This document shows, one piece after another, positions 37,637 to 40,974 of a DNA stretch of 64,000 nucleotides. Position numbers and translations under genes: made by a program. The notes below the pieces were generated by a model, which saw nothing but the letters and a program-made list of their open reading frames with translations, was not told the origin of the DNA and made no database searches. The stretch's first letter is position 1. Each line of letters starts with the position of its first letter. The stretch comes from Capillimicrobium parvum (lineage in GTDB: Bacteria > Actinomycetota > Thermoleophilia > Solirubrobacterales > Solirubrobacteraceae): the NCBI RefSeq assembly GCF_021172045.1, contig NZ_CP087164.1, positions 2,170,001 to 2,234,000 of the forward strand. The letters are read 5' to 3'.

Positions 37637-38712
37637 GCCCGTCCGAGTTCTCCGGCCGCGTCGGCCGCCTGCCGAAGTATCCCGCCGCCCCCGGCTACGC
37701 CTGGAAGGGCGACATCGCGCGCATGGCCTCCAACGAGTCGCCCGATCCGCCGCTGCCCGAGGTCCTCGAGGCGGCGCAACGGGCGCTGCAGGACCTCAAC
37801 CGCTATCCCGATCCGTCGCAGGGCGCGCTGCGCGAGAGCCTGTCGGACCGCTACGGCGTGCCGGTCGAGCGCATCGCGATCGGCAACGGCGGCAGCGACC
37901 TGCTCCTCGCCGCGGGGGATGCGCTGCTCGACCCGGGCGCCGAGATCGTCTACCCATGGCCGTCGTTCAGCCTGTACCCGCACATGGGCACCGCCGCCGG
38001 GGCCACGGAGGTGCGCGTCCCGCTGAAGGACGACTACGTCGACCTCGACGGCCTGATCACCGAGATCACCGCGGCGACCCGGCTCGTCGTCGTCTGCAAC
38101 CCGAACAACCCGACCTCGACCGCGCTGCCGCTCGAGGAGATCGAGGCGTTCCTCGAGCGCGTGCCGCGCCACGTGTGGGTGCTCATCGACGAGGCGTACT
38201 GCGAGTACTCGCTGCTCGGCGATCCCGACGACACCATCCCGCTGCTGCGCAGGTTCCCCAACGCCGCGCTCCTGCGCACGTTCTCGAAGGTCTACGGGCT
38301 GTGCGGGCTGCGGGTCGGCTTCGTCCTGTGCGGCTCGGTGGACCTCTGCCAGGCGCTGTACTCGGTCCGCCAGCCGTTCTCGGCCAACGCCGTCGCACAG
38401 GCCGCGGCCGTCGAGGCGATCCGCCATCAGGACGCCGTCGCCCAGCGCGTCGAGCGCGCCGTCGCCGCCCGCCTGCAGCTCGACGCCGGGCTGCGCCGCC
38501 TGGGCATCGAGCCGCTCGAGTCCCACGCGAACTTCTCCTGGTTTCGCGTGGGCGAGCCCGAGCAGGAGCTCGCGATCGTCAACGCGCTGGCCGAGCGGGG
38601 CGTTCTGGTGCGCTCGGGCACCGCGCTCGGCGAGCCCGGCTTCCTGCGCGTCACGTACGGGCTGCCGCACGAGAACGACCGCTTCCTGGCGGAGCTCGGC
38701 ACGCTTCTGTAG
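37633..38712 (+). CDS. hisC: HisC-family aminotransferase, possibly aromatic aminotransferase
   Basis: This 359-aa fold-type I PLP aminotransferase has the HisC signature: SNESPDPPLPEV, RYPDPSQGALRESLSDRYGV, GNGGSDLLL, VCNPNNPTS, DEAYCEY and the PLP lysine Lys219 in RTFSKVYGLCGLRVGF. HisC enzymes transaminate histidinol phosphate, but many also act on phenylpyruvate and 4-hydroxyphenylpyruvate. Its coupling to chorismate mutase and the nearby tyrA point to Phe/Tyr synthesis as the main job. That is inferred from context. Confidence 0.9.
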   Translation: MSPSEFSGRVGRLPKYPAAPGYAWKGDIARMASNESPDPPLPEVLEAAQRALQDLNRYPDPSQGALRESLSDRYGVPVERIAIGNGGSDLLLAAGDALLDPGAEIVYPWPSFSLYPHMGTAAGATEVRVPLKDDYVDLDGLITEITAATRLVVVCNPNNPTSTALPLEEIEAFLERVPRHVWVLIDEAYCEYSLLGDPDDTIPLLRRFPNAALLRTFSKVYGLCGLRVGFVLCGSVDLCQALYSVRQPFSANAVAQAAAVEAIRHQDAVAQRVERAVAARLQLDAGLRRLGIEPLESHANFSWFRVGEPEQELAIVNALAERGVLVRSGTALGEPGFLRVTYGLPHENDRFLAELGTLL

Positions 38713-38715
38713 CCT
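38710..38715 (+). promoter_or_regulatory. Candidate -10 (TAGCCT) of the aromatic leader
   Basis: TAGCCT overlaps the hisC stop codon and ends 10 nt before the leader-peptide ATG. It could start an mRNA that begins essentially with the leader peptide. Confidence 0.35.
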
Positions 38716-38725
38716 GGGCCGCGTC

Positions 38726-38791
38726 ATGCGTAGCCAGCCCGCCACCTTCGGCACCTTCTTCGGCTACGCGTACGCCTGGCGATTTCGCTAG
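38726..38791 (+). CDS. Aromatic leader peptide of aroF
   Basis: A 21-codon ORF lies in the 175-nt gap between hisC and aroF. From residue 8 on it reads FGTFFGYAYAWRFR: Phe at 8, 11, 12 and 20, Tyr at 14 and 16, Trp at 18, so 7 of 21 residues are the three end products of the pathway that aroF opens. Such enrichment is the hallmark of attenuator leader peptides. The stop codon is part of two competing hairpins. Ribosome stalling when charged tRNA-Phe, -Tyr or -Trp is scarce would change the downstream RNA fold. No homologous leader was searched for; the call rests on composition, position and structure. Confidence 0.75.
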   Translation: MRSQPATFGTFFGYAYAWRFR

Positions 38792-38840
38792 GCGCTCGGC
38801 CGCACCTTGCCGCGAGACCAGTTCCGGCTCACCGAGCGCC
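38773..38840 (+). promoter_or_regulatory. Aromatic attenuator: two mutually exclusive hairpins
   Basis: Hairpin A pairs CGCCTGGCG (38773-38781) with CGCTAGGCG (38786-38794) across a 4-nt ATTT loop, with one G-U pair. It covers the Trp and last Phe codons and the stop of the leader. Hairpin B pairs GGCGCTCGG (38791-38799) perfectly with CCGAGCGCC (38832-38840). They share 38791-38794 and cannot coexist. No U-run follows, so the output may be Rho-dependent or translational. AroF's ribosome site is GAGAAGAG just before 38888. Confidence 0.6.
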
Positions 38841-38887
38841 CTCGACGTGGAAACCCGTTCCCTGACCAGGCGTAGAGAAGAGACGAC

Positions 38888-39916
38888 ATGTTGATCGTGA
38901 TGAAGCAGACGGCGACCGAGGACCAGGTGGCAGCGGTCGTCGAGCGCATCGAGAGCGTGGGGGCGCGCGCCCACGTCAGCCCCGGCGACGAGCTGACGCT
39001 GATCGGTGCCATCGGCGACCGCGACCACGTCGCGCGGCTCGGCCTCGAGGGCCATGCCGGCGTCGCTCAGGTGGTGCCGATCCTCAAGCCCTACAAGCTC
39101 GCCTCCTCCCAGCTGCGCGGCGGAGGACGCTCGACGCTCGAGATCGCCGGGCGCAAGGTCGGCGGCGAGCACTTCGCGCTGATCGCCGGGCCGTGCACCG
39201 TCGAGTCGCGCGACCAGCTGATGACCGTCGCCCAGGTCGTCAAGGACGCCGGCGCCGCAATGCTGCGCGGCGGGGCCTACAAGCCGCGAACGTCGCCGTA
39301 CTCCTTCCAGGGCCTCGGCCAGGAGGGACTGCGGCTGCTCGCCGAGGCCAAGGCGGCCACCGGCCTGCCGATCGTGACCGAGCTCATGGACGTCCGCGAC
39401 GTCGAAGCGCTGGCCGAGGTCGCCGACGTCGTGCAGATCGGCGCCCGCAACATGCAGAACTACACGCTGCTGTCCGAGGTCGGGCGCAGCGGCCTGCCGG
39501 TGATGATCAAGCGCGGGCTGTCCTCGACGCTCGAGGAGCTGCTCATGAGCGCCGAGTACGTGCTCAAGGAGGGCAACGAGAACGTGATGCTGTGCGAGCG
39601 CGGCATCCGGACGTTCGAGACCGCCTACCGCTTCACGCTCGACATCACGGCGATCCCGGTGCTCCAGGAGCTCTCGCACCTGCCGGTGATCATCGACCCG
39701 AGCCATGCGCCGGGCCGGCGCGACTGGGTGGCGCCGCTGTCGCTGGCCGCGGCCGCGGCGGGCGCCGACGGGATCATCGTCGAGACGCACCCGGAGCCCG
39801 ACGAGGCGATCTGCGACGGCCCGCAGCAGATCCCGACCGACACGTTCTCCGACTACGCGCAGAAGGTCGCGCGCGCCGCGGAGCTGGCCGGCAAGGTCAG
39901 CACCGTGACCGCGTAG
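38888..39916 (+). CDS. aroF: DAHP synthase, type I-beta with N-terminal regulatory domain
   Basis: This 342-aa enzyme condenses phosphoenolpyruvate and erythrose 4-phosphate, the first step of the shikimate pathway. Residues 1-75 form the ferredoxin-like/ACT-like regulatory domain seen in Thermotoga-type enzymes (MLIVMKQTATEDQVAAVVERI). The barrel carries the metal ligand Cys103 in AGPCTVESRDQ, KPRTSPYSF at 132-140, IGARNMQNY, IDPSHAPGRR and VETHPEPDEA. GAGAAGAG supports ATG 38888. It is preceded by the aromatic leader peptide and hairpins, giving two possible layers of control, attenuation and allostery. Confidence 0.96.
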   Translation: MLIVMKQTATEDQVAAVVERIESVGARAHVSPGDELTLIGAIGDRDHVARLGLEGHAGVAQVVPILKPYKLASSQLRGGGRSTLEIAGRKVGGEHFALIAGPCTVESRDQLMTVAQVVKDAGAAMLRGGAYKPRTSPYSFQGLGQEGLRLLAEAKAATGLPIVTELMDVRDVEALAEVADVVQIGARNMQNYTLLSEVGRSGLPVMIKRGLSSTLEELLMSAEYVLKEGNENVMLCERGIRTFETAYRFTLDITAIPVLQELSHLPVIIDPSHAPGRRDWVAPLSLAAAAAGADGIIVETHPEPDEAICDGPQQIPTDTFSDYAQKVARAAELAGKVSTVTA

Positions 39917-39933
39917 CGGCCGGCGGGGCTCGC

Positions 39934-40974
39934 TTGCGCGTCGCGATCGTCGGCACGGGGCTCATCGGCGGGTCGGTCGGCCTGGCCGCCCGCCACCGCC
40001 TCGGCGCGGAGGTGGCCGGTGCGGGCCCGGAGGCGCCGCGCGCCGTCGAGCTCGGCGCCGTGGACCGGGCGTGCGCGACGATCGCCGAGGCGGTCGCCGG
40101 GGCCGAGGTCGTCGTCGTCGCCGCCCCGCTGCGCGATCTCGTGACGTCGATCGGGACGGTCCTCGACCACGCGCCGGCGGACTGCGTCGTCACCGACGTC
40201 GGCTCCACGAAGAGCGGCATCACGCACCTTGTGCGCGACGACCAGCGCTTCGTCGGCGGGCACCCGCTCGCCGGCGGCGAGGCGTCGGGCGTCGAGCACG
40301 CGCGCGAGGACCTGTTCGAGGGCGCGGTCTGGTACCTCACGCCGCGCGAGAACACCTCCGGCCTGCTCTACGAGCGCCTGTACCGGGTCATCAGCGGTCT
40401 GGGCGCGGCGCCGGCCGCCATCGACGCCGACGTCCACGACCGCCTCATGGCCGCGGTCTCGCACCTGCCGCACGTGCTCGCCAACGTCCTGGTCGCCCAG
40501 GCGATCCGCGCGCTCGACGACGGCGAGACGATCCCCGCCACCGGGCCCAGCTTCCGCGACGCCACCCGGGTCGCGGGCGCCAACCCCGCGCTGTGGAGCG
40601 ACATCATGCTCAGCAACCGCGAGGCGCTCGTCGCCCAGATCGACGACGTGCAGCGCCGCCTGGCGGAGGTGCGCGCCGCGCTCGCGGCCGGCGACGGCGA
40701 CGCGCTCGGCGCGTTCCAGGCCACCGCGGCCGGCGAGCGGCGCGCGCTCCTGGAGACCCAGCTCGGCGGCGGGGCGCAGCGTGAGCTGCACGTCCCCGTG
40801 CTCAACCGCCCGGGGGTCATCGCCGAGCTCGCACTCCGCCTCGGGCGCGCAGGCATCAACATCTCCGACATGGCACTCGCGCCGTCGCCGGACATGCAGC
40901 AGGGCGAGGTGACCGTCTGGGTCGCCGAGCGCGACGCCGCGCGCGCCGCCGAGATCCTGGAGCTCGACCCGTGA
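39934..40974 (+). CDS. tyrA: Prephenate dehydrogenase with C-terminal ACT domain
   Basis: This 346-aa protein oxidatively decarboxylates prephenate to 4-hydroxyphenylpyruvate. It has the NAD(P) Rossmann motif VAIVGTGLIGGSVG at the N-terminus, VTDVGSTKSGI, GGHPLAGGEASG, the AVSHLPHVLAN helix and a C-terminal ACT domain (about 288-345; RELHVPVLNRPGVIAELALRLGRAGINI) likely to bind tyrosine. A TTG at 39934 is the only start that puts the Rossmann motif at residue 3; no ATG or GTG is available in frame. It begins 17 nt after aroF. Confidence 0.93.
   Translation: MRVAIVGTGLIGGSVGLAARHRLGAEVAGAGPEAPRAVELGAVDRACATIAEAVAGAEVVVVAAPLRDLVTSIGTVLDHAPADCVVTDVGSTKSGITHLVRDDQRFVGGHPLAGGEASGVEHAREDLFEGAVWYLTPRENTSGLLYERLYRVISGLGAAPAAIDADVHDRLMAAVSHLPHVLANVLVAQAIRALDDGETIPATGPSFRDATRVAGANPALWSDIMLSNREALVAQIDDVQRRLAEVRAALAAGDGDALGAFQATAAGERRALLETQLGGGAQRELHVPVLNRPGVIAELALRLGRAGINISDMALAPSPDMQQGEVTVWVAERDAARAAEILELDP

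Follow-up and report, generated by a model that had tools for sequence, protein, structure and literature searches.

A conserved leader with phenylalanine, tyrosine and tryptophan codons upstream of DAHP synthase genes in Solirubrobacterales, a candidate ribosome-mediated attenuator

Results

The leader between hisC and aroF

The window analyzed here is a 64,000-nucleotide (nt) stretch of the Capillimicrobium parvum genome (5.95 Mb, single contig; NZ_CP087164.1, positions 2,170,001 to 2,234,000), whose named relatives belong to Solirubrobacterales/Conexibacter. We were interested in the space between hisC and aroF, which holds a short open reading frame (ORF) rich in codons for phenylalanine (Phe), tyrosine (Tyr) and tryptophan (Trp) and which we consider likely to be a ribosome-mediated attenuator. 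The gene order at the locus is hisC, leader, aroF, tyrA, aroA, and all features described below are on the plus strand. The candidate regulated gene, aroF (38888..39916), encodes a 342-residue 3-deoxy-D-arabino-heptulosonate 7-phosphate (DAHP) synthase of the I-beta type; a first-pass annotation, made from the letters of the window, had already called it a DAHP synthase, and the NCBIfam assignment (PRK08673/TIGR01361) agrees. The prephenate dehydrogenase gene tyrA (39913..40974) overlaps aroF by 4 nt, placing both in one operon, and aroA, starting at 40971, overlaps tyrA by four bases.

The leader ORF (38726..38791) encodes MRSQPATFGTFFGYAYAWRFR and consists of an ATG, 20 further codons and a TAG stop. 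Direct reading returned the 21 codons with four Phe, two Tyr and one Trp that the first-pass annotation had counted. These sensor codons span 38747..38785, with Phe at 38747, 38756, 38759 and 38783 (codons 8, 11, 12 and 20), Tyr at 38765 and 38771 (codons 14 and 16) and Trp at 38777 (codon 18). The last Phe codon forms, together with the preceding arginine codon, a nearly invariant CGA-TTT core (38780..38785), situated 5 nt upstream of a stem that we refer to as stem B. Its left arm (GGCGCTCGG, 38791..38799) pairs with a right arm (CCGAGCGCC, 38832..38840), as indicated by both covariation and folding, and its first paired base is the final base of the leader stop codon (38789..38791). Hairpin A (38773..38794) is stable in this genus and has positions 38791-38794 in common with hairpin B. 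From 38841 to 38887 the RNA is untranslated up to aroF and contains a purine-rich stretch resembling a Shine-Dalgarno (SD) sequence at 38874-38882; no run of uridines (U-run) follows stem B.

Conservation of the sensor codons and of the CGA-TTT core

The upstream regions compared were those of orthologous aroF genes in the genus, in the order at large and in contigs of public genomes. Gathering the main set with the pattern CGATTTnnnTAG makes those letters invariant in it by design. For an unbiased set, ORFs were selected by their peptide alone, that is, by ending in aromatic-R-aromatic; 99 of 136 regions gave such an ORF, and setting aside one clear chance hit (L118) left 98 true leaders. Together with 39 loci found by DNA pattern, the peptide-picked set makes up 122 distinct leaders before DAHP synthase genes, spread across the order Solirubrobacterales.

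Within the 15 codons preceding CGA, Trp is found in all 122 leaders and Tyr in 120, and the terminal Phe codon, present in all of them, is supplied by the core itself. Aromatic codons make up 27.9% of the 14 codons upstream of the core when read in frame, compared to 1.3% and 3.8% in the other two frames, and in the relatives this enrichment is concentrated at codons -1 to approximately -10 before CGA. None of the 122 leaders has an in-frame stop in the 16 codons preceding the core, so both the ORF and its frame are conserved. The link between an aromatic leader peptide and DAHP synthase thus holds in essentially every relative, with Phe, Tyr and Trp codons conserved in their aroF gaps. What ribosome-mediated attenuators have in common, a short ORF rich in end-product codons upstream of a pathway gene, is also what we find here. 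Separately, we noted that the sensor codons lean toward the rare, wobble-read codon for Tyr, TAT accounting for 103 of 214 leader Tyr codons versus 5 of 34 in the seven neighboring window genes that served as codon usage reference.

Both the core and the constant 5-nt distance at which stem B follows it went unnoticed in the first-pass annotation. All 98 peptide-selected leaders end in W (or another residue)-R-F-X-stop and use precisely the codons CGA and TTT, whereas at other leader positions CGA accounts for 1 of 201 Arg codons and TTT for 14 of 81 Phe codons. Besides these ORFs, unbiased support for the core comes from covariance-model hits, which were the source of the two exceptions, L325 (TTC, in a leader without Tyr near the core) and L151 (ACC), as well as of the stop-less leaders L330, L174 and L175. 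Beside the core, the sequence TAGGCG, leading into stem B, is nearly constant. Three leaders from a single genus (L174-L176), as well as L330, have lost the stop codon, and their ORFs continue beyond the core; CGATTT is nevertheless retained and is therefore not a termination signal. No pairing partner in cis was detected for the core, as complements both upstream and downstream were as frequent as in shuffled sequences. A programmed frameshift at CGA-TTT, considered from sequences only, was discarded, as the positions that would determine the -1 frame are variable.

Covariation supports stem B and not hairpin A

In the window, hairpin B (38791-38840) has a predicted folding energy of -24.8 kcal/mol (z -2.2), and the same stem is the default fold in most relatives. 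In an alignment of 80 sequences, 92.5% of stem B cells are paired, while controls slid along the alignment reach at most 47%. Covariation is pronounced as well, with 61 double-changed cells against 18.9 in shuffles and none of 500 shuffles reaching the observed value; typical double changes turn CT/AG into TC/GA at the fifth and sixth pairs. RNAalifold recovers the stem unaided. Because both are conserved, across 122 leaders for the one and with this covariation for the other, the leader ORF and stem B can be taken as more than a chance arrangement.

The first-pass annotation had proposed hairpins A and B as a competing pair and expected compensatory changes in both stems. The two hairpins do lie where it had placed them and share four bases, and compensatory changes are plentiful in B. 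Hairpin A, although stable in the window (9 bp, -16.0 kcal/mol, z -4.9), shows no double change across the relatives, roughly half of the sequences cannot form its outer pairs, and it fails in many clades. Moreover, its pairs fall in the Trp and stop codons, making their conservation indistinguishable from coding constraint. A conserved role of hairpin A as competitor of B is accordingly unproven, and no other conserved competitor emerged; of two mutually exclusive conserved structures, we find one.

A further structure was seen by eye in a single genus-level group (L127, L128, L124, L152, L154, L166, L171 and L189), in which CGTGAGCGGG in the loop of stem B could pair with a downstream CTCAC or CTCACG to form a pseudoknot. 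Given its restriction to L127, L128 and their kin, the GTGAG/CTCAC pseudoknot was rejected as a general feature.

Promoter-like sites on either side of the leader

The hexamer TAGCCT (38710..38715), which we call P1, overlaps the hisC stop codon and ends exactly 10 nt before the leader ATG, matching the -10-like element reported in the first-pass annotation. Sites of this kind (TANNNT or TACAAA type) occur 4 to 14 nt before the in-frame start in 95 of the 122 leaders, compared to 4.2% of control positions, most often at 7 to 10 nt. TACAAA is the commonest form, and a TGn precedes 70 of the 95 sites. With a -10-like element so close to the start codon, the leader transcript is probably leaderless or nearly so. 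Leaderless actinobacterial leaders have been reported in Corynebacterium diphtheriae (PMC5784534) and Streptomyces lividans (PMC8079986).

A second promoter-like TANNNT, again missed at first pass, lies 22 to 41 nt before aroF in 48 of 85 relatives, compared to 1.2% in controls. We regard it as a probable second promoter in those relatives. It is absent in the other 37, including the window's own genus.

The leader stays in place while the enzyme is exchanged

Another aspect not apparent from the window is what lies behind the leader elsewhere. In the 39 extra loci, the following gene encodes an I-alpha (Escherichia coli AroFGH-type) DAHP synthase in 32 cases and an I-beta enzyme in 7. Tandem I-beta and I-alpha genes behind one leader are found at L257 and L285 (two of the seven) and at L241, which look like intermediates of enzyme replacement. 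The flanking hisC and tyrA genes are unchanged in most loci for which the flank is covered. As both enzyme families occur behind the leader between hisC and tyrA, with tandem intermediates, this arrangement indicates that DAHP synthase has been exchanged in place behind a conserved leader, and that the leader follows the enzymatic function rather than one gene.

Conversely, the leader is lacking from divergent I-beta aroF paralogues (about 60% identity) at other loci, from several small-genome lineages of the order and from I-beta genes in other orders of the class. A covariance model detected the element in 79 of 299 class genomes, once in each and always within the order, and order members only in a phylum sample of 246; the other class genomes (about 200) and other phylum genomes (about 240) had none. 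Pattern scans agree with the model except for L200, a contig binned in another family which carries an aroF like that of the order and is probably mis-binned. In its own genome the motif has one exact copy, with near-matches no commoner than in the control, and none of the Rfam 15 covariance models matched the window or nine relatives.

Some I-beta synthases behind the leader lack the first ∼65 to 80 residues of the window protein, where the N-terminal ferredoxin-like (feedback) domain lies (G032, G139, G165, G004, G187, G010, G040 and G052; e.g., L264, L265, L284, L241 and L218-L220). In these enzymes, transcriptional control may remain where allosteric control has been lost.

Discussion

A model for the leader

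Taken together, we consider it likely that the leader is a ribosome-mediated attenuator that senses Phe, Tyr and Trp together and sets the expression of DAHP synthase and the downstream operon. All evidence is sequence-based, and the E-values of the covariance model are rough. Judging by the conserved -10-like element, the RNA would begin at or a few bases from the leader start codon, and with such a near-leaderless start the first ribosome would follow close behind the polymerase. Should any of the three aromatic aminoacyl-tRNAs run short, this ribosome is predicted to halt at a Tyr, Trp or Phe codon. When CGA occupies the P site and TTT the A site, 11 nt separate the first P-site base from the first pair of stem B, which, given the known geometry of the ribosome, places that pair about at the mRNA entry; a stall at any of the aromatic codons should consequently leave stem B intact. 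The aromatic codons end exactly at the limit up to which a stalled ribosome would spare the stem.

When the aromatic amino acids are in good supply, the ribosome would pass CGA-TTT and reach the stop codon, or in a few lineages run through it, unfolding stem B while the downstream RNA is being synthesized. Intact stem B would then correspond to the starvation (ON) state in which more enzyme is made, a sign we assign because the antiterminator arm of classical aromatic attenuators in Calditrichota, described below, occupies the same position. As to the output, which the first-pass annotation had suggested to be Rho-dependent or translational, we find neither a U-run nor a sequestered SD sequence, and our tentative first choice is termination by a factor (Rho) within the untranslated gap, ahead of RNA decay or effects on translation. 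With 39% C and 30% G, the stretch from stem B to aroF is moderately rich in C, which is compatible with Rho and not diagnostic of it.

A more specific and at present speculative version gives the core itself a function. CGA-UUU and the stem exactly 5 nt downstream may form a dedicated ribosome pausing device, in which reading the slow Arg-CGA/Phe-UUU pair would keep the ribosome at the foot of the stem, the leader would sense all three aromatic amino acids, and the output would proceed without a terminator hairpin, through Rho or RNA decay. If true, this would represent a novel attenuator architecture, maintained throughout an order and despite replacement of the enzyme under its control.

Several observations weigh against the attenuator model. 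The exact bases CGATTT are not required by anything in it. Behind stem B, T accounts for 5 to 33% per position in the relatives, that is, no U-run is found. Folds of the RNA without the leader's codon run, in which the left arm of B was blocked as by a ribosome, revealed no conserved alternative partner for the right arm, no SD sequestration and no consistent change in the pairing of the SD sequence or start codon. With no terminator, no competitor for the right arm and no such change, an OFF structure is not visible. In those relatives with the second promoter-like site, some aroF transcripts may arise without passing through the leader. Lastly, many of the genomes are metagenome assemblies, and the sequences are related by descent.

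Alternative explanations

The second promoter-like site also provides an argument for two separate units, in which P1 would give rise to a short leader RNA acting by interference or in trans, while aroF is transcribed mainly from the site just upstream of it. Among the relatives the site far exceeds its control frequency; even so, we find this scenario unlikely, given that more than a third of the relatives (37 of 85) lack it and that the leader is retained only at aroF/aroG, once per genome.

Somewhat less probable still is classical intrinsic attenuation, with stem B as a terminator whose formation is prevented by hairpin A or by a stalled ribosome. While most relatives do adopt B by default, and hairpin A and the base of B overlap in the window, the first-pass annotation was right in finding no U-run downstream of B, and the relatives have none either, which led us to reject an intrinsic terminator. 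Hairpin A also lacks covariation, and ribosomes stalled at Tyr or Trp codons would leave B free to form, turning the gene off under starvation.

The near-constant C-terminal W-R-F, followed by one variable last residue, might instead suggest a nascent peptide of the TnaC kind that arrests the ribosome when an aromatic ligand is present. We deem this improbable, as the constraint extends to codons, with CGA and TTT not exchanged for synonyms in any of the 98 peptide-selected ORFs. Furthermore, the Trp directly before the core is replaced by Pro, Leu, Ser, Arg or Tyr in 8 of 122 leaders while Trp persists further upstream, the peptide continues beyond the core in L174-L176 and L330, and residues upstream vary freely among relatives.

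We give very little credence to direct binding of a ligand or protein by a structured RNA, as in a riboswitch or LEU element, with the ORF being incidental: a near-invariant unpaired core next to a conserved stem would fit, whereas aromatic codons conserved in frame despite varying sequence, the lack of a conserved cis complement of the core and the scarcity of further shared structure would not. Equally remote is the notion that the core is cleaved by an RNase E-type enzyme, with ribosomes shielding or uncovering the site, and that the leader would thereby control mRNA stability; E. coli-type RNase E prefers RN-WUU, and the GA-UUU seen here, surrounded by GC-rich sequence and 5 nt away from a stem, does fit, yet such sites are normally degenerate and the core is fixed in register with the reading frame.

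Comparison with known systems

The reading of this leader as a candidate attenuator, as proposed at first pass, is thus supported in part. E. coli spreads its aromatic control logic over separate repressors and leaders; in this little-studied actinobacterial order, the entry step of aromatic synthesis is very probably controlled through a single translated leader in which Trp, Tyr and Phe are all sampled. Enterobacterial leaders of the trpL/pheL type, following the Yanofsky model, work through alternative 2:3 and 3:4 hairpins and a U-run terminator. The Solirubrobacterales leader resembles them in codon-based sensing by a stalled ribosome at the pathway entry and differs in that one conserved stem was found.

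Classical aromatic attenuators do precede I-beta aroF in other phyla. In the Calditrichota loci L104 and L076, a leader rich in Phe, Tyr and Trp codons is followed by an antiterminator arm at or just after the leader stop, with a perfect complement of 9 nt (L104) or 15 nt (L076). The position of the stem arm matches that of stem B; U-run terminators and a complementary antiterminator arm set these systems apart from the Solirubrobacterales leader. More broadly, Phe/Tyr/Trp-rich leader ORFs (e.g., MKSLKNTFYYYGYYYYFGGWCSDSQ) followed by U-run hairpins were seen upstream of I-beta aroF in three Calditrichota loci (L069, L076 and L104), four Planctomycetes-type bins (L078, L089, L090 and L109) and a deltaproteobacterial bin (L077), so that aromatic attenuators of aroF in the classical form seem widespread.

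Among actinobacterial leaders, the LEU element with its LeuL1 leader before leuA has Leu codons and a pseudoknot in which the codon run pairs with the SD sequence (PMC1262725, PMC8079986). Similarities include a leader ORF with codons for the amino acid concerned (reported to be leaderless in S. lividans), a conserved RNA and the lack of a U-run terminator; unlike the pseudoknot of the LEU element, the Solirubrobacterales leader has one plain stem beginning at the leader stop. In the C. parvum genome, leuA (L328, C1:2744431) is preceded by a leader MRSLTALSLLLLLPR (ORF at -131 to -86) whose ATG follows a TACCGT at a distance of ∼10 nt and which is probably a leaderless Leu leader, while trpE has no such leader. 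In the actinobacteria surveyed by Seliverstov et al., no conserved RNA element was found before Phe/Tyr genes, and the leaders described for cys and leuA had no terminators (PMC1262725). The ilvB-II motif of Corynebacterium, a conserved RNA motif, proved to be a uORF attenuator (upstream ORF; PMC10272879); it concerns branched-chain amino acids, another genus and another sequence.

The nearest relative is aroR-aroF of Corynebacterium, likewise an actinobacterial system with an aromatic leader immediately before a DAHP synthase gene. In Corynebacterium glutamicum, aroR is described as a Phe-Tyr-Phe leader before aroF that acts by ribosome-mediated attenuation and responds to Phe and not to Tyr (Neshat et al. 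2014, via PMC11802643; PMC4046766). Going by these descriptions, aroR has a single Phe-Tyr-Phe run, whereas the Solirubrobacterales leader has Trp, Tyr and Phe codons and the CGA-TTT core, with a stem following at constant distance and no terminator in sight. The principle of attenuation is thus already established. We did not find described, in the literature consulted, a leader that combines codons for three amino acids with a core at set distance from a stem, occurs order-wide and has survived replacement of the enzyme. A leader that outlasts the in-place replacement of DAHP synthase amounts to a natural experiment, indicating that control can outlive the enzyme. And a near-invariant CGA-TTT at fixed distance from a covarying stem offers a handle on how actinobacterial leaders without a U-run, including those of cys, leuA and aroF, pass on their signal.
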